Assembly: GCF_021026295.1 (NCBI RefSeq) | Contig: NZ_JAJNDA010000003.1 | Coordinates: 62,001 to 126,000, forward strand | Source of the DNA: Actinomycetospora soli | GTDB taxonomy: Bacteria > Actinomycetota > Actinomycetes > Mycobacteriales > Pseudonocardiaceae | Length of the DNA: 64,000 nt | Direction of reading: 5' to 3' | Shown here: positions 53,212 through 64,000 of the stretch, piece by piece | Numbering within the stretch: position 1 is the stretch's first letter | How the letters are laid out: each line of letters begins with the position of its first letter | Notes under the pieces: generated by a model | The model's input: only the letters and a program-made list of their open reading frames with translations | Told to the model about the DNA's origin: nothing | The model's database searches: none | Made by a program: the position numbers and the translations under genes

Positions 53212-55527
53212 GTGACGAAGCTGTCGACGGTGCTGGACCAGGTCGACGCCGGGGTGATGCTCCTGCCGGAGTTCCAGCGCGGGTACGTCTGGAACCGGGA
53301 CCAGGTGCGCGGATTGATGAAGTCGGTGTACCGGGAGTTCCCGGTAGGCGCGCTGCTCGTGTGGGAGACCGAGGTCAGCGCCGATCAGACCCGCGGGGGC
53401 GGAGTGTTGGCGCAGGCCGGCGGACAGCGCCACCTACTGCTCGATGGCCAGCAGCGTGTGACGACGCTGTACGGCGTCATCCGCGGCCGCGCGCCCGGCT
53501 TCTTCGACGGTGATGCGAGCGCCTTCACCGGTCTGTACTTCAACGTGGAGACCGAGGACTTCGCCTTCTACGCGCCGATGAAGATGAAGAACGACGCCCG
53601 CTGGCTCGACGTCACGAATCTTTTCTTGGAGGGCACGGCGCCAGCCATCGGCCGCCTCATGGGCGTGACCACCGACCCGCAGCAACTGTCGGACTATATG
53701 GCGCGAGTCGCCCGGCTGCACAACGTCCTGAACCGCGACTTCCACATCGAGCAGATCACCGGTCCGGACAAGACGATCGACGTGGTCGTCGACATCTTCA
53801 ACCGCGTCAACTCGGGCGGGACGAAGCTCTCGAAGGGCGACCTCGCGCTCGCCCGTATCTGCTCGGAATGGGACCAGGCCCGGCCCTGGATGCGGCACTA
53901 CCTCGACGAGTGGCGCAAGCGCGACTACGTCTTCAACCTCGATTGGCTCTTGCGAACGGTAACAGCGGTCGCAGTTGGTCGCTCGCAGTTCTCCAACCTT
54001 GAAGACGTCTCGGCCGAGCAGTTCGAACACGCCCTCAAGGGCACCCGCGAGCACGTCGACCACCTGCTGGGCGTCGCGGTCGAACGCCTCGGCATCGACC
54101 ACGACCGCGTGCTCTTCGGCCGCTACGCCTTCCCGGTTCTCGCCCGGGTCCTGAGTCGGCGCGACGACGGACGCTTCCTGGACGGCGTCGAGGCGAACAA
54201 GGCGATGGCGTGGTACGTGCAGGCCGCGATCCGTGGGCGGTTCACCGGCCCGACGGAGACGAACCTGAACAAGGATCTCCAGATCGCGGACCGGGAGGGC
54301 GTCGACGGCCTCCTCGACTCCTTGCGCAAGCTCCACAAGGGATCGCTCGCCGTGCGCGCCGAGGACTTCGAAGGCGTCGGACGCGGCGCACGGTCCTATC
54401 CCCTGCTCTACCTCCTGACGCGCAGTGTCTCCGGCCTCGACCTGGTCGACGGGGCGCCGTTCGCAGGTCGGACGACGTCCCTCCACGTCCAAGAGATCTT
54501 CCCGCGCGCCGAGCTGCGGAAGGCCCGCTACAGCACCGGTGAGATCAACGCGATCGCCAACTTCGCGTTCGTCACGCAGGACTCCGGACGTCGGCTCGGG
54601 ACCCGCCTCCCCGAGGACCACCTTCCGGAGTGTTCGATCGAGGGCCTGCGGGCCCAATGGATCCCGGAGGACCGCACCCTGTGGCGGGTCGACCGCTACC
54701 GCGAGTTCCTGGCCGCCCGACGTCAGCTCCTCGCCGAAGCAGCCGACGGATTCCTCGGTGAGCTCGCGGCCGGCACGGCGGCCTGGCCCTCACCTCCCCT
54801 GTACGTGTTGGGCCCCGTCGAAGAGGACGAGAAAGGCCCGCGGGCGTCGCAGATCAGGGCGCTCCTCGCCGAGTTCGCCGAGCTCGGGTTCGCGACGCCG
54901 GCCGTCGACTGCGAGATCCCCGACCCGGACACTGGACGCACCCTGGCCGTCGCGGAGGCCTTCTGGGCGGACGGGTTGCAGGCGGGACTCGGTAACCCCG
55001 TCGTGCTCGAGTTGGACCCTGAGGAGGCCGATCTCGCCCGGCTCTCCGAGCTCGGCTGCGAGGTCTTCACCTCGGTCGACGCGCTGCTCGCGCACGCCCG
55101 ACGGCGTGGCGAGGTGGCCGGGGGCGACCGCACCGACGAGGGGACGGTGCACGCGAGCACGGAGTCCGAGACCGCGGTCGAGGCGGCCCACGATCAAGAG
55201 CCGGAGCCCGAAGCGGAGCCGCCGGTCGAGGGCGAGTTCGGGCGCGCTGTGCAGGCCGTGATCGACCGGTGCACGAAGGAGCTGAGGTACAACCCCCGCT
55301 ACTTCCGGGTGATGATCTCCCAGCACGGAGCGCTCGGGGCCACTCAGCGGCTGCTCTCGGCACCGGCCGTCAGCGACGGGTTCGTGAAGCTCTGGGAACA
55401 CCAGCGCCTCGACCTCACCGCGGAGGCTCTCGTGCTCGACCCCCGGTTCGCAGCCCTCTTCACGGATTCGGAGCGGAAGGTGGCACGGGCCCGGCTGGAC
55501 GATTTCGGCTACTCGGGCGCTGCGTAA
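53212..55527 (+). CDS. GmrS-like DUF262 protein with degenerate HNH region and island-specific module
   Basis: The 771-residue protein starts at GTG 53212 (GAGGGGG upstream). The N-terminal DUF262 domain has LLPEFQRGYVWNRDQ and the nucleotide-handling DGQQRVTTLY motif (near 77), as in GmrS of type IV restriction. A later stretch (about 420-500: EIFPRAELRKARYSTGEINA then IANFAFVTQ) aligns with the DUF1524 HNH region, but the usual HHIFP histidines read QEIFP, so nuclease activity may be lost. Residues about 545-633 are a module also found at the end of the SF1 helicase. A charged linker and a small helical domain close the protein. Confidence 0.85.
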   Translation: MTKLSTVLDQVDAGVMLLPEFQRGYVWNRDQVRGLMKSVYREFPVGALLVWETEVSADQTRGGGVLAQAGGQRHLLLDGQQRVTTLYGVIRGRAPGFFDGDASAFTGLYFNVETEDFAFYAPMKMKNDARWLDVTNLFLEGTAPAIGRLMGVTTDPQQLSDYMARVARLHNVLNRDFHIEQITGPDKTIDVVVDIFNRVNSGGTKLSKGDLALARICSEWDQARPWMRHYLDEWRKRDYVFNLDWLLRTVTAVAVGRSQFSNLEDVSAEQFEHALKGTREHVDHLLGVAVERLGIDHDRVLFGRYAFPVLARVLSRRDDGRFLDGVEANKAMAWYVQAAIRGRFTGPTETNLNKDLQIADREGVDGLLDSLRKLHKGSLAVRAEDFEGVGRGARSYPLLYLLTRSVSGLDLVDGAPFAGRTTSLHVQEIFPRAELRKARYSTGEINAIANFAFVTQDSGRRLGTRLPEDHLPECSIEGLRAQWIPEDRTLWRVDRYREFLAARRQLLAEAADGFLGELAAGTAAWPSPPLYVLGPVEEDEKGPRASQIRALLAEFAELGFATPAVDCEIPDPDTGRTLAVAEAFWADGLQAGLGNPVVLELDPEEADLARLSELGCEVFTSVDALLAHARRRGEVAGGDRTDEGTVHASTESETAVEAAHDQEPEPEAEPPVEGEFGRAVQAVIDRCTKELRYNPRYFRVMISQHGALGATQRLLSAPAVSDGFVKLWEHQRLDLTAEALVLDPRFAALFTDSERKVARARLDDFGYSGAA

Positions 55528-56009
55528 CCCCTGCGGACGAGGGCGAGGATCAGCTCACGCACAGCGGCGTCGTTCAACACGCGGTGTCCGGTGTCGAGCG
55601 CGCTGCGCCGTTCGGCGAACTGCGTGACGAGGTCGGCGATCGCGCGCTGCGGGACAGGCAACCCACGAGTCACGCCCGCCGTGAATCGAGCTGCCCTCGC
55701 CCGCATCCGTTGAGCTTCGAGACTAAGCGGAGTCGGCGATATTGAGGCTCTGACGACCGAACTCGCAGGCGTTGGCCAACTCCGCTGGAGCTCGCGACGA
55801 GCCTCGTCGAGCTCGCGCCGCTTCCACACCGGCATCGTCGTCGTGCTGCGCGGGATGGCGGCGATCTCGTCGCACACCGCACTCACCTCATCGGCGGCGG
55901 GCCGTCGACCGGCGTCAATCTCGCGCAGCAGCGTGTCGACGCGGCGCTCCAACGTGAGGGTCACATGGGAGGTATCGGAGCCACCGACGACGCCGTATCC
56001 GCGGACCAT
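55509..56009 (-). CDS. Hypothetical helical protein, about 166 residues
   Basis: An antisense-oriented gene lies between the two big island genes and overlaps the 3' end of the DUF262 gene by 19 bases. The product is mainly helical (LERRVDTLLREIDAGRRPAA, then ISPTPLSLEAQRMRARAARF) with no signal or membrane segment. I do not recognise it. ATG at 56009 is used, with a GTG at 56033 also possible. Being the only minus-strand gene there, it could be a small regulator or immunity-type factor, or unrelated. Confidence 0.5.
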   Translation of the reverse strand: MVRGYGVVGGSDTSHVTLTLERRVDTLLREIDAGRRPAADEVSAVCDEIAAIPRSTTTMPVWKRRELDEARRELQRSWPTPASSVVRASISPTPLSLEAQRMRARAARFTAGVTRGLPVPQRAIADLVTQFAERRSALDTGHRVLNDAAVRELILALVRRGYAAPE

Positions 56010-56142
56010 TGACCTATTCGGGTGGATCTCCACCCGCCTCGGCGCGACTGGGTCGCGGACGGGGCGCGACAGTGTCAGACCCGTCGCCTACGGTGATCCG
56101 CGGCGCCCACCCGTGGTGAGCGCCGGGCCGCGAAGGGGGACC

Positions 56143-59100
56143 GTGGACGCCGACTCGTCACGCTGGCACGAGATCACGCCGTCGGCGTTCGACCACGAGA
56201 AGCGCGCGCTCGAGCACCTCCGAGGGCTGCTCCCTGACCGACAGCCCTTCCAGGTCTGGACGAACTTCACCTTCACCTCGGACCAGGGCCATGTGCGCGA
56301 GGTCGACGCGTTGGTCGTCTGCCCGGCCGGCGTCCACCTGATCGAGATCAAGAACTTCCGCGGACGGCTCCATAACCGGGGCTCGATCTGGATGCTCGAC
56401 GGCGAGATGGGCACGAGCCGAGACAACCCGATCGGCCTGGCCATGCAAAAGGCGAAGGAGCTGCGGTCCCGTCTCCGTGTGGCAGCACGAGCGGAGCGCG
56501 TCGACATCCCCTACATCGGTGCGGCCATCTTCCTCGCCGAGCCCGGGATGCGGTGCGAGCTCGACGAGGCGGAGCGACACCACGTGTACGCGCCGAACGA
56601 TGCCGTCAACGACCTCCCGAAGCTCGGCCGCGACCTCCTGCTTGCCACACCGGGCCATCGCGCCCCGCAGCCCGACTTCTTCCGGCGCGTGCAAGGGCTC
56701 CTCGGCAAGGTCGGCATCGCCCGAACACGGCGCAGCGTGACCGTCGGGGTCTGGGAGATCGAGCCTCGCCCGTTCGACTCCGGGCCCACGTGGGGCGACC
56801 ACCACGCCACCCGTCCCGACATCCCCGGCGACTACCGCCGCATCCGCATCTATCTCTATCAACGCCAGACCGACCAGGAGTCGCGGGAGTCGGTCAAGAA
56901 CGCGGCCTACCGTGAATACCAGGCGACCCGCGCCATCAGCCACCCCGGCATTCTGGCGCCGAGTGAGGTCCTGGAGCACGAGATGGGTCCGGCGCTGCTC
57001 ATCGAGCAGCACCGCGACGCCATGCGGCTCGACCACTGGGTCGCGGAGCACAACGACGCCCTGACCCTCCCCCAGCGGCTCGGCCTCATCCGGCAGCTCG
57101 CCGAGGCAGTCGGCTACGCCCACGAGCGGCGCCTCGTCCACCGCGCGCTCTCACCGCGCGCGGTGATCGTCCAGCCGGACGGCCGGCTGCGCGTCGGGGA
57201 GTGGCAGGTCGCCGAGCGGGGACGATCGTCGACCAAGACCGCGCACCGGGTGCTCGCCACCAGTCACGCCGGCAACCACGTCGAGGCCGCGGCGTCCGGC
57301 TACCTCGCGCCCGAGTTCACGAACGGTGCCGACGGCACCGTCGCGATCGACGTCTTCGGTCTCGGTGCTGTCTCCTACCTCCTTCTCACGGGCAAGCCGC
57401 CCGCCACGGGGCGCATCCCGCTCATGGAGCGGCTCGCGACCGAGGACGGGCTCCGCCCGTCGACGGACGTCGCGGACCTCCCGCCCGCTCTCGACGAGTT
57501 GGTGGCCTTCGCGACGGCGCCGCGGGTCGCGTCGCGGCACAGCGATGTTGACGAGTTCCTCGCCTTCCTGGCCCAGATCGAGGCCGAGAACTCCCCCGCC
57601 GTCGAGACCTTCGATCCGCTGGATGCACGAGCAGGCGACGGGTTGCCGGGCGGCTATCGCGTGGTGCGGCCCCTCGGTAGTGGAGCGTCGTCGCGCGGGT
57701 TCCTGGTCGAACGCCACGGCCACGAGTCCGTCCTGAAGATCGGTCGCACCGCCGAGGCGGACGAGTGGCTCGTCGGCGAAGCCATTGCCCTCGACGAGCT
57801 ACGTCACGAGCACGTCGTGGCCCTTCGGCAGGGCATGTTCGCGCTCGGGAACCGCTCAGCCATCGAGCTCTCCTTCGCCGGGGATCGTACGCTGGCGCAG
57901 CTCCTCCACGAGGACGGCAGCCCCGACGTGGAGACCGCGGAACGGCTCGGTACTCAGCTCGCCAATGCACTCGCCTACGTGCACGACCACGACACGTTCC
58001 ACCGGGACATCAAGCCGGACAACGTGGGTCTGCAAGCCCACGCCCGACGCGGCCTGTCAGCGACGCTGTTCGACTTCTCGCTCGCCGGCGCCTCGACCGC
58101 CGACGTCCTCGTCGGGACTTACGGGTACCGCGACCCCTTCGTCGGGGGCACCGATCGCCCGACGTTCGACCGGGCGGCCGACCTCTACTCCCTGGCGGTG
58201 ACGCTGCACGAAGTGCTCACCGGCGAGATGCCGCGGTGGGGAGACGACGGCACCGACCCGCGCTTCGTCGACGAGGTCACGCTGTCGGAGGAGCACTTCC
58301 CGGGGGAGCATCGAGCGGCCCTGTCCACGTTCTTCCGCACCGCGCTGCACCGCTCCGCGACGAGTCGTCACCGAAACGCCTCGCACTTCGCGCAAGCGTG
58401 GCGGGAGGTCTTCCACGGCCGGCCCGAGGAACCCGAGATCGAGGACGAGACGGCCGAGCGCACGGCGCGTCTCGTCGTCCACGTCGACGCCCTCGCCGAG
58501 GTGCGGCGGATGGACCGCACACTTCAAGACGCTGTCCTGGACGCCGTGCGCTCCTTCCCGCGTCGTCTTCCCGCGTTAGTGCCGCCGCCCGGGGCGGCGG
58601 ATCCGCGCATGCGGACGCTATCCATCTCCGACACCCATAGCGGAGCGGTCCTCGCGCCCGCATCAGAGGGCGACGACCTCTTCCTTCTCCTGCGCGTTCT
58701 CCCGCACGACGAAGCGCGTTCCTGGGCCACGAAGCACGGCGTCACGATCAACGGCGTCTCCGGCGCGATCGAGCTACGCGACGTCGTCGAACTCGACCGT
58801 CTCGAGGCCGAACTCGAAGCGGCAGCGCACCGTGCCCCCGCTCTCCTGTTCGACAGCATCGACGACGCCGACCTGGAGCGGCTCGGGATCGACGAGCAGG
58901 TCCGGGGCGTCGCTCGCAGTCTCACCAACGAGGCCACGCTCCGCACCCTCCAGGGTTACCTCCCTGAGGAACAGTTCAGCGTCCTGCTCGCACTGGCCGC
59001 CGGTCGCACGCCCGACGAGGTATGGACCGACATCGTCGCGCCGCGCAGCGCGCCCGATCCGGTTGATCCCGACGACGTCGAAGCTGCGGTCGAACGCACG

Positions 59101-60558
59101 CAAGGCAAGCTGCTGCGCGTCGACGACACCTCCCTCGGCGACTACCTGGAACGCCCGATCTCCGCGTGGCGAACCTTCCTCCACCCCTCGCAGGAACGCA
59201 TCGCCTACCGGCCGTCCTTCTGGGGCAGCGCCCAGGTCACCGGCGGTCCAGGCACCGGAAAGACGGTTGCGGCACTGCACCGCGTCAAGTACTTGACGCA
59301 GCGCAAGCCGCTGCCTCCGAAGTCAATCCTCGTCACGACGTACACCAACTCGCTCGAGGCCGCGCTCGAACGCGACCTCCGGCAGATGGACCTCACTCTC
59401 GACGAGCTCGAGGCGGTGCAGGTCCAGAACATCGACTCGTGGACCCGCAGCATCGTCGAGGATGCGCTCGGCCGCGCCCCAACGATCGTGAAACCGGGGG
59501 ACTCCAACCAGCGTTGGAAGCGTGCTGCGCAGCGTGCGGGGGTGTCCGAGTCGCCGTCGTTCCTCGAGGCGGAGCTCAAGAACGTCGTACTCGCGCAGCG
59601 CCTGGACGACGAGGACGCCTACCTCTCGTGCATCCGCCACGGCCGCGGCCGCCCGGTGCGGCGCGGCGAGCGACGAGGGCTGTGGGCCGCGATGACCGCG
59701 TACCAGCAGGGCCTCGCAAGCGACCGGCTCTGGACGTGGGCCGGTCTCGCCGACAAGGCGGCCCAGCTCCTCGAGCACCGGGCGGCGCCACCCTTCCAGC
59801 ATGTCGTCGTCGATGAGGTACAGGACCTCCACCCCGCGCAGCTCCGCGTCCTGCGCGCCGCCTGCAAGCGAGGAACGGACGACATCTTCCTGACTGGCGA
59901 CCCCCACCAGCGGATCTGGAGCAACCGGGTTTCGCTGAAGCAGGTCGGGATCAGTGTCGCGAACCGCTCGTTCAAGTTGAAGATCAACTATCGAACCAGT
60001 GCCGAGATCCTCGACTGGGCCCTCGGCATCCTGGGACCAGGCGAACACGAGAACTTCGACGGCACACGCGACTCGCTCGCGGAGTACCGCGCGAGCTTCC
60101 ACGGCCGTCCGCCGGTTCTGGTCGGCTACGACTCCGAGTCCGCCGAAATGGACGCTCTGGCCGACGCTGTCCGTGGGTGGGAGAAGGACGGAGTCGCCGG
60201 CGAGGACATCGCCGTGCTCGGCCGCACGCGCGACATCCGAGACCGTGCGCGAGCCGCCCTCGACGCCGCAGGCATATCGACTCGGGGGGTCACCGACGAC
60301 GCCACCGACGGTCGAGTCTGCTGCGCCACGATGCACGGGGTGAAAGGCCTCGAATTCCGGGCGGTCGTGCTGGTCGGGGTGTCGCAGGACGCCGTGCCAA
60401 ACCGCTTCGCTGTCACGTCCGAGAGCCAGGACCCCACTCAGCACGAGCAGGACCTGCAGCAGGAGCGGAACGTCTTGTTCGTCGCGGCGACGCGAGCGCG
60501 AGAGGAGCTCCGTGTGACGTGGTCAGGCGAGCCCAGCCGTTTCCTCGGTCAGCGCTGA
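56143..60558 (+). CDS. NERD - pseudokinase - Ser/Thr kinase - UvrD-type helicase fusion
   Basis: The product is 1471 residues from GTG 56143 (AAGGGGGA upstream). Domain order: NERD nuclease-like domain (about 10-130; Asp55 in VREVDALVV and Glu68-x-Lys70 in LIEIKNFRG keep the catalytic pattern); a kinase-like domain (about 225-490) whose HRD reads HRA (333) and whose DFG is GEW, so a pseudokinase; a second kinase (about 504-770) with GSGASSRG loop, Lys532, HRDIKPDN (620) and DFS (644), probably active; a spacer; and a complete SF1 UvrD-like helicase (GGPGTGKT at 1034, DEVQD at 1224, GDPHQRIW, NYRTS, TMHGVKGLEF, VAATRAREEL). NERD plus kinase recalls PglW of BREX, and the helicase fusion sets it apart. 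Confidence 0.92.
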   Translation: MDADSSRWHEITPSAFDHEKRALEHLRGLLPDRQPFQVWTNFTFTSDQGHVREVDALVVCPAGVHLIEIKNFRGRLHNRGSIWMLDGEMGTSRDNPIGLAMQKAKELRSRLRVAARAERVDIPYIGAAIFLAEPGMRCELDEAERHHVYAPNDAVNDLPKLGRDLLLATPGHRAPQPDFFRRVQGLLGKVGIARTRRSVTVGVWEIEPRPFDSGPTWGDHHATRPDIPGDYRRIRIYLYQRQTDQESRESVKNAAYREYQATRAISHPGILAPSEVLEHEMGPALLIEQHRDAMRLDHWVAEHNDALTLPQRLGLIRQLAEAVGYAHERRLVHRALSPRAVIVQPDGRLRVGEWQVAERGRSSTKTAHRVLATSHAGNHVEAAASGYLAPEFTNGADGTVAIDVFGLGAVSYLLLTGKPPATGRIPLMERLATEDGLRPSTDVADLPPALDELVAFATAPRVASRHSDVDEFLAFLAQIEAENSPAVETFDPLDARAGDGLPGGYRVVRPLGSGASSRGFLVERHGHESVLKIGRTAEADEWLVGEAIALDELRHEHVVALRQGMFALGNRSAIELSFAGDRTLAQLLHEDGSPDVETAERLGTQLANALAYVHDHDTFHRDIKPDNVGLQAHARRGLSATLFDFSLAGASTADVLVGTYGYRDPFVGGTDRPTFDRAADLYSLAVTLHEVLTGEMPRWGDDGTDPRFVDEVTLSEEHFPGEHRAALSTFFRTALHRSATSRHRNASHFAQAWREVFHGRPEEPEIEDETAERTARLVVHVDALAEVRRMDRTLQDAVLDAVRSFPRRLPALVPPPGAADPRMRTLSISDTHSGAVLAPASEGDDLFLLLRVLPHDEARSWATKHGVTINGVSGAIELRDVVELDRLEAELEAAAHRAPALLFDSIDDADLERLGIDEQVRGVARSLTNEATLRTLQGYLPEEQFSVLLALAAGRTPDEVWTDIVAPRSAPDPVDPDDVEAAVERTQGKLLRVDDTSLGDYLERPISAWRTFLHPSQERIAYRPSFWGSAQVTGGPGTGKTVAALHRVKYLTQRKPLPPKSILVTTYTNSLEAALERDLRQMDLTLDELEAVQVQNIDSWTRSIVEDALGRAPTIVKPGDSNQRWKRAAQRAGVSESPSFLEAELKNVVLAQRLDDEDAYLSCIRHGRGRPVRRGERRGLWAAMTAYQQGLASDRLWTWAGLADKAAQLLEHRAAPPFQHVVVDEVQDLHPAQLRVLRAACKRGTDDIFLTGDPHQRIWSNRVSLKQVGISVANRSFKLKINYRTSAEILDWALGILGPGEHENFDGTRDSLAEYRASFHGRPPVLVGYDSESAEMDALADAVRGWEKDGVAGEDIAVLGRTRDIRDRARAALDAAGISTRGVTDDATDGRVCCATMHGVKGLEFRAVVLVGVSQDAVPNRFAVTSESQDPTQHEQDLQQERNVLFVAATRAREELRVTWSGEPSRFLGQR

Positions 60559-63500
60559 CGCCTCAGCTCCGCCCGCATCGTCGTCCGGAGGTCCGCTGAG
60601 GACGTGAACACCCGGCATCCAAGCGCCGTCAGACGCGGGATGTCGGCCTCTTCGGGGTCGAGCTCCAGGACGACGGGCTTACCACCGGTGGGGTGGATGC
60701 CGTCGGCCCAGAAGAGTTCCGCGATGCAGAGCAGCGCCCCGCCCTCCGGGTCCAGGACCTCCTGGTCCACGGCCGGCTCGACCGCGCCGAGCGAGCGCAG
60801 CTCCTCCGTCAGCCGCCGGACCTGGGCACGGCGACTCGCCTCGGACGCGACGTGCCCCGACGGCGGGGTCACGGGCCTCCGCTCCGCCGGCGTCGGCGAC
60901 ATGCGCGACTCGGCCGGGCCACCCGCGAGCTTGGTGTGCCGCGGACGAGGAAGGCTGAAGACCGGGTCCTTCGTTCCGGCCTTGCTCAACCGCCCCGCCA
61001 CCGACAGGTCGCTGAGCAGGCCGCGCGCCTCCATCTTGGGAACGCCGATCAGGTCTGCGAGCGCCGGAGCAGTCAGCGACCCTCGCGACGCCACGAGGTC
61101 AACGACCACACCCCGCACCTCGTCCGTTGTCATCCCGTTGATCGAGACCTCGGGCTCCAGTTCGACGAAAGGAGCCTCATCCTCCGGGGCGCGTGCCACC
61201 GGAGCTGATGGTGCCCGCGGCGGATCAGGAGTCTCGACGACGTGTTCAGTGCTCGGACGCGGGGCGGGCTTCGGCGTCGAGGAGGAGGTCGGCGGCGCAG
61301 GCGTGGTCGGGTCGGCGACGTCAGGCAGAGCGCCTGCGGACAAGACCTCGAGCACGTCCAGCGGTTCCTCCGCAATCGCGATCGACGAGTCGGTCGTCGG
61401 CGCGCGGTCGATCACTCGCACCGGCGTGAGCTCGGCACCGTCGGCGAGCAGGGGACGGATTCCGGCGGCCTCGAGGTCCCGGGCCACCCGACGTCGCACC
61501 CCGGCGCGGTCGAGGACATAGCTCGACTCCCGCACTCGGAAAAACCGCCATCCCGCCCGCTTCAGCTCCTGCTCGCGGTCGAGCTCGGCGCGCCGCTCTT
61601 CGTCGCTCGCACGGTAGGTGTCCGCATCGCACTCAACCGCGACCCGGCCGCCGGGGCCGGTCACCACGAGGTCCAGACGGCGGCCGTTGATCTCGAGCTG
61701 CGGCGTGACGTGGTGCCCTGACCATGCCAGGTCGCGGAAGACGTTCTGCTCCAGCAGCGAGTCGAAGCCGGGCACCCGCTCGTAACGGCTGATCCCCTCC
61801 GGCATGGCTGCCAGGGCCTGGTCGTCCGTACTCGTCATGTACTCCAGCAGCGAGCGGCGAAGGTCCTTCCCGCCGAGCTGCTCGACCGACATCGAGTGCA
61901 CGATCCAGAGCTGGTCCTGAGCACGCGAGGCGGCCACGTTGAACCGCTGGCGGTACATCTCGTTGCTCAGCGCGATGGAGCGGTAATCCGGCGCGAGCAC
62001 CATCGACAGCCAGATGACGTTGCGCTCGTCGCCCTGGAAGTCAGGCGGGCTGCCGACCCGCAGCTTGCGCTTCGTCCACTCCTCGTCTCCGATGCGGCCC
62101 CGCAGCACGTTCTCGATCAACGTGACCTGTGCGTGGCCCTGCAGGACGACGACACCGAAGGTGCGGCCGTCGTAGGCAGGATCGGCTACGCACTGCTCGA
62201 CGAGGTCCGCGATCACCTCGGCCTCGCGGCGGTTCGCGATCTTCTCGCGTCCGCCCGTCTGCACCGCGTCGGGCACGTGGGTGGCGCGCAGCGGTGGCAG
62301 GCGGTCGGCACCGAACTGGCGGAGCGGCACGAGCGGGGCGTCCGCGTAGAACTCGCCCGACGACCATTCGATGATCTCGGGCATGCAGCGGAAGTGCTCC
62401 TGCAACCGGATCACCTGTGGGAAGCACGACCGGAGCAGCGAGAACACGCTCGACTTCGAGGTGAACTGGAGCCGCCGGTGCGCCGGGAGGTCGGGCAGCT
62501 CGTTGTCGAGGCGGTCGAAGATCGGAGCGAGTGCGCCCATCGTCACCTCGGCCGGGGTGCACTGCTTGTCGTCCCCGACGACGATCATCCGCGGGGCGAG
62601 CCAGAGCAGGAATGCGCTCGTCAACTCCGCTTGGCTGGCCTCGTCGACGATGACGACGTCGAACACGTCCTTTTCCGGCGCAACGGAGGCCAGGACCTGC
62701 TGGATCGGCATGATCCACGCAGGCACCGCGTGCTGGGCCTCGGTCATGGCCGCCCGCGCGGCCTGCCGGAAGCGCTCGGCGTACTTCCCGGTGCCCTTCC
62801 CGACCTGACTCGCCCGCTCCCGGTACATCTGGAGCGCTTGCATCTCCTGGGCCGACATGCCCTCCAGGCACGCCTTCCATGCCTTGTCCGCCGCCAGCTC
62901 GGCCGTGACCTGACCCAGGTCGTACGTCGCGGTTGCCAGCTCCCGCTCGAGGGTCTGTTCACGCCCGGGAGCCTGGTGGCGCTCCATCCATGCGGCGGCG
63001 CGGGCGCGGGCCCACGCCTGTGGCAGCCGAGCGAGGCGTCCGTCCCAGTGGCTCGCGTCGGACTCATCCCACAGCTCGTCCGCGAGTTGCGGCGCGGCCG
63101 CACGCAGCCGGCCCATCAGGTCGTCGCACCGCCGCTGGTCCTGCTGCTCCGACGCCGCGACGTCGAGCGACTCGACAGCCTGTCGGTACCGGTCCGGGTC
63201 GGCCGCTCGCCACGCCGCGAGGAGTTCGACGTGCTCCGGGGACCGCTCCCCACCCGCGTCGACGTCCAGAGTGTCCGCGACCGTCGTGATCTCGTGTCGG
63301 GCGACACGAGCGCGCCGGGCGTCGGTCACCTGAAGCGCGACCCCCGCCACCCGATGGAGCCCGGCGAGGCTATCGATGCGCGGGCGTCGAGCCGCCGGGA
63401 GGGGCGAGAGGAGCCGGCCGATCTCCTGCTGGCACTCCATCACGGCGGAGACGGCGCGACACACATCCGCGGTGTCGGCCATCTGGTCGATGAGATCGGC

Positions 63501-64000
63501 TCGATAGTTGCTCGGGCGCACACCGATTCCCAGCGGCTCGAAGACCCGGTGCAGGTGGATTGCCGTTTCGACGACGCGCAGGTGCCCGGCGGCGATCCGA
63601 GCAGCACCCGGCGAGTCGACCTTGGCGCCATTGACGAGGACGCGGTCGCCGTACGATTCGATCTTCTTCTGCTCGGGACTCTTCATCCACGGCCAGAAGC
63701 TCGAACCGTTCTGCTCCTGATCGAGGGCGTACGCCTCGAGGGAGGCTGCGTCCGGAACGGGAACCGTCACGAGGTCGACCGCCACCTCGGCATTCTGCGC
63801 CGCGCGGTCACCCTCCTGTGCCTGCGGGATCGACGCGAGCTGCGCGATCGCGCTCTGCCAGGCGTGCCGTCGGCCGCCGCGCAGTTGCTCCTGCGCCATG
63901 GCCATGCCCCACTGGCGGTTGCCAGGGCCGTGCTCCAGCTCCGCCAGGGCGTTGCCGACCCGCCGCGCTGCCGGATCCAGCCGAGCGAGCTCGTCGTCGG
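60549..64000 (-). CDS. SF1 (Upf1/DNA2-type) helicase with MTES_1575 nuclease domain, partial
   Basis: The frame is open to the right edge, so the N-terminus and Walker A are outside. Seen in order: a long helical region; DEAxQ box VIVDEASQAELTSAF with GDDKQCTP; EHFRCMPEIIEW; FQGDERNVIWLSM; and RFNVAASRAQDQLW, all SF1B motifs. Then a PD-(D/E)XK-like domain of the MTES_1575 type (LEINGRRLDLVVTGPGGRVA, then VECDADTYRASDEERRAELD), a linker, a winged helix (LTAPALADLIGVPKMEARGL), and the module shared with the DUF262 protein (VVLELDPEEADIPRL). It is convergent with the kinase-helicase gene, overlapping 10 bases at a GTCAGCGCTGAC palindrome. Confidence 0.9.
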   Translation of the reverse strand, partial: DDELARLDPAARRVGNALAELEHGPGNRQWGMAMAQEQLRGGRRHAWQSAIAQLASIPQAQEGDRAAQNAEVAVDLVTVPVPDAASLEAYALDQEQNGSSFWPWMKSPEQKKIESYGDRVLVNGAKVDSPGAARIAAGHLRVVETAIHLHRVFEPLGIGVRPSNYRADLIDQMADTADVCRAVSAVMECQQEIGRLLSPLPAARRPRIDSLAGLHRVAGVALQVTDARRARVARHEITTVADTLDVDAGGERSPEHVELLAAWRAADPDRYRQAVESLDVAASEQQDQRRCDDLMGRLRAAAPQLADELWDESDASHWDGRLARLPQAWARARAAAWMERHQAPGREQTLERELATATYDLGQVTAELAADKAWKACLEGMSAQEMQALQMYRERASQVGKGTGKYAERFRQAARAAMTEAQHAVPAWIMPIQQVLASVAPEKDVFDVVIVDEASQAELTSAFLLWLAPRMIVVGDDKQCTPAEVTMGALAPIFDRLDNELPDLPAHRRLQFTSKSSVFSLLRSCFPQVIRLQEHFRCMPEIIEWSSGEFYADAPLVPLRQFGADRLPPLRATHVPDAVQTGGREKIANRREAEVIADLVEQCVADPAYDGRTFGVVVLQGHAQVTLIENVLRGRIGDEEWTKRKLRVGSPPDFQGDERNVIWLSMVLAPDYRSIALSNEMYRQRFNVAASRAQDQLWIVHSMSVEQLGGKDLRRSLLEYMTSTDDQALAAMPEGISRYERVPGFDSLLEQNVFRDLAWSGHHVTPQLEINGRRLDLVVTGPGGRVAVECDADTYRASDEERRAELDREQELKRAGWRFFRVRESSYVLDRAGVRRRVARDLEAAGIRPLLADGAELTPVRVIDRAPTTDSSIAIAEEPLDVLEVLSAGALPDVADPTTPAPPTSSSTPKPAPRPSTEHVVETPDPPRAPSAPVARAPEDEAPFVELEPEVSINGMTTDEVRGVVVDLVASRGSLTAPALADLIGVPKMEARGLLSDLSVAGRLSKAGTKDPVFSLPRPRHTKLAGGPAESRMSPTPAERRPVTPPSGHVASEASRRAQVRRLTEELRSLGAVEPAVDQEVLDPEGGALLCIAELFWADGIHPTGGKPVVLELDPEEADIPRLTALGCRVFTSSADLRTTMRAELRRQR

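Follow-up and report, generated by a model that had tools for sequence, protein, structure and literature searches.

A recurring DUF262/RelE-UvrD helicase pair in a new fused form beside a helicase-nuclease gene of Actinomycetospora soli

Do three very large genes with defence-type domains that lie side by side in Actinomycetospora soli belong together, and to which kind of defence do they belong? The genes are located at the end of the window, the 64,000 bp stretch of DNA analyzed here (positions 62001-126000 of contig C33 in a genome of 6.5 Mb). Gene 1 (53212..55527, + strand, GTG start) encodes a BrxU/GmrSD-like DUF262 protein of 771 amino acids (aa; Pfam GmrSD_N/DUF262, 5e-27). Gene 2 (56143..60558, + strand, GTG start, 1471 aa) combines a PglW-like N-terminal half (~aa 1-770) with a RelE-like domain and a UvrD helicase (~aa 773-1471). 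Gene 3 (- strand, 1751 aa) encodes a superfamily 1 (SF1) helicase (AAA_11/AAA_12) with an MTES_1575 nuclease domain. Its stop is at 60549, and its frame fills the window from there to 64000 and runs 1.8 kb past it to window-equivalent position 65804 (L006:8549-13804).

An earlier note on this DNA had described the three neighbouring proteins as GmrS-like DUF262, NERD-pseudokinase-kinase-UvrD and SF1 helicase with MTES_1575 nuclease and had proposed that they form one system. Pfam matches and coordinates confirmed the architectures and the arrangement. The note had not seen a 174-aa gene between genes 1 and 2, a RelE-like part within gene 2, how far gene 1 resembles BrxU, a module that is 58% identical between genes 1 and 3, or a smaller recurring unit of DUF262 protein, RelE-UvrD helicase and, in part, a kinase, which is attached to DISARM or ARMADA. 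At the core of the locus, a defence unit of a known type appears in a fused form that is new, and a captured module ties in the third gene.

The DUF262/RelE-UvrD pair recurs and is often attached to DISARM

We analyzed 80 loci with relatives of gene 1, the best 80 of at least 544 confirmed relatives. Since 79 of the 80 were actinobacterial, the breadth of the family beyond actinobacteria rests on plasmid matches. The locus scan made use of the DGQQR motif, so that the count of 80/80 for this motif is circular and was not used. Many genomes recur among the class sample, the family sample and the 80 loci. The class and family searches scored two to three first-look candidates per genome (13 in the search for the module described below), and weak or extra copies can therefore be missed.

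A RelE-UvrD match was located within 150 bp of the gene 1 relative in 51 of the 80 loci, with gaps of -12 to 150 bp and in 46 cases on the same strand. In the class sample 17 of 394 genomes matched gene 1 at 1e-30, and RelE-UvrD directly adjoined the relative in 10 of the 13 other genomes with a full or near full-length relative. The family sample (23 of 150 genomes matching at 1e-15) showed RelE-UvrD adjoining in 9 of the 11 other genomes with strong relatives.

On the upstream side of the helicase, where ~8 kb or less of flank was visible, 21 of the 51 paired loci had a kinase gene at a distance of at most 2.5 kb. Homologs of DrmA/B/C were present in 17 paired loci and any Drm-type match in 29; the 12 additional loci had matches of the DrmD/DrmMI type only, four of them at 39% or more and eight weak. 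These eight could be other methyltransferases or helicases and not DISARM. In the full DISARM cases the gene order was DrmD-DrmMI-DrmA-DrmB-DrmC, in some a methyltransferase, then a Ser/Thr kinase, RelE-UvrD and DUF262. Many relatives of gene 1 and of the gene 2 helicase are found at the end of DISARM class 1 operons, but the window locus differs from these in having no DrmA/B/C match between the window start and window-equivalent 152000. As the kinase is encoded by a separate gene upstream of the helicase in these operons, the kinase half of gene 2 stands in its place.

Other neighbours were found as well. On one plasmid each of Paracoccus and Aulosira, ARMADA-like genes lay near gene 1 relatives, in type I and type II order, respectively. 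In two of the 80 loci (L185 and L190) the kinase directly preceded DUF262 and the helicase was absent. An SF1 helicase of ~1900-2000 aa together with a DpdE-like gene adjoined the gene 1 relative in L210 (same genome as L170) and in L167, which represents another helicase context for the gene 1 protein. Neither the DUF262/RelE-UvrD pair nor the NERD-kinase-RelE-UvrD fusion was found described in the open-access literature searched.

Gene 2 joins a PglW half to the RelE-UvrD helicase

Residues 7-787 of gene 2 matched positions 2-800 of the 1391 positions of the NCBIfam model BREX_PglW with 871.6 bits, which is under the cut-off of 990. The closest relatives of this half in the family sample were 51-60% identical. 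It carries a NERD nuclease domain (aa 17-123; 56191..56511, + strand, Pfam) and two kinase domains. As read from the sequence, the first kinase is devoid of the HRD Asp and of the DFG motif and looks inactive; the second (aa 505-705; 57655..58257, + strand, Pkinase match) retains HRD and DF and looks active. The same inactive-then-active pattern is described for PglW in the excerpted text of PMC12839542, according to which the C-terminal half of PglW consists of winged helix-turn-helix and iSTAND parts. Gene 2 differs from PglW of BREX type 2 in having RelE-UvrD in place of this half. A NERD-pseudokinase-kinase set is also reported for DndF variants in excerpts of PMC10853773 and PMC12839542. 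These share the N-terminal domains with gene 2 but carry them on another core, a P-loop kinase and not a helicase.

The second half of gene 2 comprises the RelE-like domain (~aa 773-882; 58459..58788, + strand) and the UvrD helicase domains (aa 1021-1466; 59203..60540, + strand, UvrD N and C matches). The best matches of the RelE domain model (predicted local distance difference test, pLDDT, 92) were toxins of the RelE superfamily; the first three in the PDB were YafQ, YoeB/ParE and HP0894, a RelE-family toxin. Match probabilities were 0.98-0.99, with E values of 0.03 and none at 0.001.

A RelE-like domain fused to a GajB-like UvrD helicase is described, in the part of PMC12458937 consulted, for ArmD, the last gene of ARMADA type II, and residues ~773-1471 of gene 2 have this architecture. 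However, the gene 2 helicase falls into the DUF262-paired branch of the tree, apart from the ARMADA copies. It is fused to the kinase half, and YprA, PglX and RapA do not adjoin it. The fixed ARMADA type II order, RapA-PglX-YprA followed by RelE-UvrD, does not occur in the trio. Judging from these matches and from the tree, gene 2 unites the N-terminal PglW half with a helicase of the DUF262-paired type that comes from the matching lineage.

Gene 1, the gene 2 helicase and the gene 3 tail share a lineage

In the gene 1 tree the window protein fell, with a support of 1.0, into a group with nine loci whose HNH pair reads HE or QE. The helicase half of gene 2 grouped with the helicases of L243, L186 and L180 (support 0.98), which are three of these nine loci; the L180 helicase lies 2.9 kb from its gene 1, and the entry G429 in the helicase tree is the same record as L243. 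The distances in both trees were correlated over 49 pairs, the pair of the window included (r=0.84), and 0 of 2000 permutations reached as high a value. Species history contributes to this correlation and could alone partly cause it.

A stretch of 78 residues is 58% identical between genes 1 and 3. The corresponding C-terminal module comprises aa 538-635 in gene 1 (54823..55116, + strand), with a predicted order of helix, three strands, helix, strand and helix, and its copy is located at ~aa 1658-1743 of gene 3 (60576..60824, - strand). The copy grouped within the same gene 1 lineage (support 0.86). A profile of the module matched 16 places in the 394 genomes, namely 14 gene 1 proteins, one remnant and gene 3. 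Among 257 fetched sequences, 11 matches lay outside stretches with the DUF262 motif, and these were fragments of gene 1 relatives or gene 3 itself. Gene 3 was searched for in 16 genomes, the 80 loci and plasmids; the gene 3-like matches in four of the 16 genomes (G161, G110, G267 and G384) stop short of the module. The helices and strands as predicted would be compatible with a core of the restriction-endonuclease type. We rejected the idea that the module was copied from the MTES_1575 nuclease domain of gene 3 (aa 1352-1443; 61476..61751, - strand, Pfam 9e-22), since the profile comparison gave a probability of ~1%.

The helicase and nuclease of gene 3 matched the models of Hhe, PDC-S37 and ProA. 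Gene 3 differs from these in the additional gene 1 module and, for Hhe and ProA, in scores far under the NCBIfam cut-offs (ProA 158 of 1500 bits, Hhe 104.9 of 2000).

Gene 1 is related to BrxU and has probably lost its nuclease

Gene 1 consists of DUF262 (aa 5-216, DGQQR intact), an HNH-like middle part, the C-terminal module and a helical tail. A model based on 35 sequences (mean pLDDT 83, predicted TM-score 0.60) gave BrxU (PDB 7p9k) as top fold match with an E value of 1e-14 and a TM-score of only 0.3-0.4; SspE was weaker. BrxU was also the sole match at 0.001 when the profile of the gene 1 family was compared with solved sequences (3e-25, residues 4-512, covering the DUF262 and HNH-like parts). 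Apart from the low overall TM-score, gene 1 differs from BrxU/GmrSD in the added module and tail and in the HNH His, which is Glu in this lineage. The Pfam DUF1524 model did not match any of the 35 family members.

For GmrD the DUF1524 motif is given as DHIYP in the excerpt of PMC10952713. The commonest form among the gene 1 relatives was HHIFP or near it. The second His was retained in 54 of the 80 relatives (53 HH and one RH; HH before [IVLM]FP) and absent in 26, of which 25 had another residue and one had no readable motif. The window protein carries QEIFP (aa 427-431; 54490..54504, + strand) and shares QE with its sister species; HE was present in eight Pseudonocardia/Pseudonocardiaceae relatives. 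With QEIFP in place of HH-[IVLM]FP, gene 1 is probably no longer a nuclease itself. The change also occurs in relatives that have neither gene 2 nor gene 3, and the loss therefore predates the present arrangement.

Two further groups deviated at the HNH pair. Nine Nocardia relatives (L246, L248-L254 and L256) had HY or HF, the match to gene 1 ended at ~residue 640 and there was no RelE-UvrD neighbour. In Nocardiopsis/Thermobifida (L231, L233-L237) the HNH motif was degenerate or unreadable (HT, HM, HK, QT) and the RelE-UvrD neighbour was retained.

The sister species and the surrounding defence island

The closest gene 1 relative among the best 80 was found in Actinomycetospora sp. NBRC 106378 of the same genus (89% identity; locus L177, genome G466). 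There, gene 1 and the small gene (81% nucleotide identity) are directly followed by AddB-like, AddA-like, nuclease, DpdE-like and HmaA-like genes (80%). At the matching place the window genome carries a stretch of ~14 kb with genes 2 and 3 (56030..64000 within the window and on to window-equivalent ~70037, strand not applicable), which was either inserted here or lost in G466. The stretch also contains two genes of 325 and 261 aa (L006:15393-17116, window-equivalent 67393-69116), which look by eye like nucleases and had no PADLOC match at 1e-8.

The small gene of 174 aa (55509..56033, - strand) had a counterpart among the 80 loci in the sister species alone. A remnant of DrmC was considered and rejected: the PADLOC DrmC match (5e-5) covered 41 aa and the alignment with four DrmC proteins was unconvincing.

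The region is rich in defence-type genes. The block at window-equivalent 70038-84209 (L006/L007) corresponds to G466:C2 91403-105573 with 80% nucleotide identity and is thus present in two genomes of the genus. It contains the AddB-like, AddA-like, PDC-S11-type nuclease, 158-aa, DpdE/DrmD-like and HmaA-like genes and could constitute a separate system. At the same end of the block, the window genome has an ARMADA II-like operon (window-equivalent 84375-101272) and G466 has BREX type 2-like genes (C2 71895-91307; PglW identified by a match, the other genes from their size and order), as if both sets had been exchanged between the species. Within the former, RapA, PglX, YprA and UvrD are arranged in ARMADA II order as an operon separate from the trio (85238-101272; PADLOC matches and BLAST). 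Matches of the DrmD/DrmMI type at the window locus were confined to 82-101 kb.

The comparison with PADLOC models, which the earlier note had called for, and with NCBIfam models showed that each of the three genes matches models of different systems and that none passes an NCBIfam cut-off. Its argument from a missing PglZ held largely: no PglZ (PF08665) was above the cut-off in the window genome, and this is not beyond doubt, since a contig other than that of the window contains a partial match (to positions 110-174 of 179) with 23.6 bits, 1.4 short of the cut-off of 25. The full-length PglW of BREX type 2 is not found in the trio either. The near-identical ribosome sites of genes 1 and 2, in contrast, turned out to be uninformative on co-regulation, because the motif RAGGGGG occurs 13 times in the window versus 24.5 times in shuffles and is thus rarer than expected. 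The copy at gene 2 is separated from the GTG by a mere 2-3 nt.

Discussion

Based on the pairing, the fusion, the lineages, the module and the missing His, all of which are seen at the level of sequence, we consider it moderately probable that genes 1 and 2 represent a detached and fused offshoot of an accessory unit that recurs with DISARM and ARMADA and in which a RelE-UvrD helicase, in part with a kinase, accompanies a BrxU/GmrSD-like protein, and that gene 3 was recruited through the captured module.

Several observations weigh against this interpretation. There was no RelE-UvrD within 300 bp in 29 of the 80 loci (nine of them Nocardia, some near contig ends). G466 has none of the ~14 kb with genes 2 and 3, and its gene 1 abuts AddAB-like genes without a RelE-UvrD neighbour, so that gene 1 can persist in the absence of the other two. 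Queries with DrmA, DrmB and DrmC of G267 gave no match at 1e-5 from the window start to window-equivalent 152000. The DISARM-linked kinases are only 25-32% alike to those of gene 2, so that the correspondence is one of position and type. The stretch G-x-[HN]-[LM]-E-[KR], present in the 19 other sequences aligned, is missing from gene 2, and the RelE part may therefore be inert. For the module, no significant match was found among solved structures (the best was a receptor at E 0.03; a restriction-endonuclease-fold protein followed at 0.15), and the module tree rests on ~90 residues. The gene 3 helicase was matched in only five of the 80 loci, in two of them at length with 38-44% identity, and no annotated gene 1 relative was located near a gene 3 relative on a Tsukamurella plasmid. 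Finally, the NERD-kinase-RelE-UvrD fusion is a singleton in the genomes searched: among the matches listed, a second full-length gene 2 was found neither in the 394 class genomes (at least 108 with a match, its own included), nor in the 150 family genomes (70 with a match, no other spanning both halves), nor in 18 genus genomes (three with a match, its own included), and no match in 27 plasmid records covered 80%. Contrary to the recurrence the earlier note had asked for, no second trio appeared in the class, family or genus genomes or in the 80 loci, a search that for gene 3 covered 16 genomes, the 80 loci and plasmids. As the flanks of the 80 relatives also contained no PglW-type gene and gene 3 was matched in so few of them, the three-gene unit has been seen once. 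The earlier note's proposal of one system is thus upheld as far as shared parts and lineages link the genes, but not by recurrence or by the sister species, in which genes 2 and 3 are absent.

The genes could instead be chance neighbours in a fast-changing defence island. Gene 2 would then be a one-off recombinant of a BREX PglW and a DISARM/ARMADA-type helicase, gene 3 a separate helicase-nuclease with an acquired tail, and there would be no joint function. The ~14 kb stretch absent from the sister species, the lack of a second fusion, a gene 3 relative without gene 1 or 2 annotated nearby and the many other defence-type genes of the island all favour this, as does the match of gene 3 to the PADLOC candidate PDC-S37, in which S presumably stands for a single-gene candidate. 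However, one lineage of the pair includes gene 1 as well as the gene 2 helicase half and the gene 3 tail, which makes three independent chance draws unlikely, even if local recombination between neighbours could also produce a shared lineage. We therefore hold an absence of joint function to be rather unlikely, and the trio is not a plain chance pile-up.

A better, still less than probable, alternative is that the functional partners of gene 1 are the small gene and the AddAB-like/nuclease/DpdE-like/HmaA-like block at window-equivalent 70038-84209, a set that genes 2 and 3 would split as an insertion. Both halves are contiguous and in the same order in L177 of G466, at the 81% and 80% identity given above; PADLOC models are matched both by gene 1 (HEC-05) and by the final gene of the block (HmaA, 1136 bits). 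Against this, AddA/AddB lay by gene 1 relatives in only three of the 80 loci (two of these short), compared with 51 that had the RelE-UvrD helicase. Such a role is compatible with the accessory unit, since gene 1 could serve both. Very improbable, in our view, is that gene 2 acts alone as a kinase/helicase defence protein of the Mokosh-like type and that genes 1 and 3 have nothing to do with it. The PADLOC model MkoA does match the NERD/kinase part of gene 2 (2e-37), but among the matches listed its helicase part matches gene 3 and not the UvrD half of gene 2. Of Mokosh type I, the kinase part alone was matched in gene 2 (best 25 of 81 families).

If genes 1 and 2 are indeed derived from the accessory unit, the anti-phage activity, complex formation, docking and cutting that we infer would proceed as follows. 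The DUF262 protein would sense non-self or modified DNA in an NTP-dependent manner and the helicase would load on the DNA so sensed. The PglW NERD-pseudokinase-kinase half, fused to the helicase, would replace the separate kinase, and the kinase would switch the complex. As gene 1 is devoid of the HNH His, cutting is assigned to the NERD domain of gene 2 and to the helicase-nuclease of gene 3, which may dock to the partner of gene 1 through its copied C-terminal module. More doubtful is a complex of all three proteins, in which possession of the captured C-terminal module would single out the partners: a BrxU-like sensor with a dead nuclease and an SF1 helicase-nuclease would share a docking module and plug into a NERD-kinase-RelE-UvrD hub, and cutting would have moved from the sensor to the recruited nuclease.

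Our results suggest a mobile accessory unit common to DISARM and ARMADA, which consists of a RelE-UvrD helicase, a BrxU-like type IV protein and, in many cases, a kinase. The gene 2 fusion would tie this unit to PglW of BREX as well, and since the small module was captured by a nuclease next door, it could serve to test directly how partners are chosen by such proteins.

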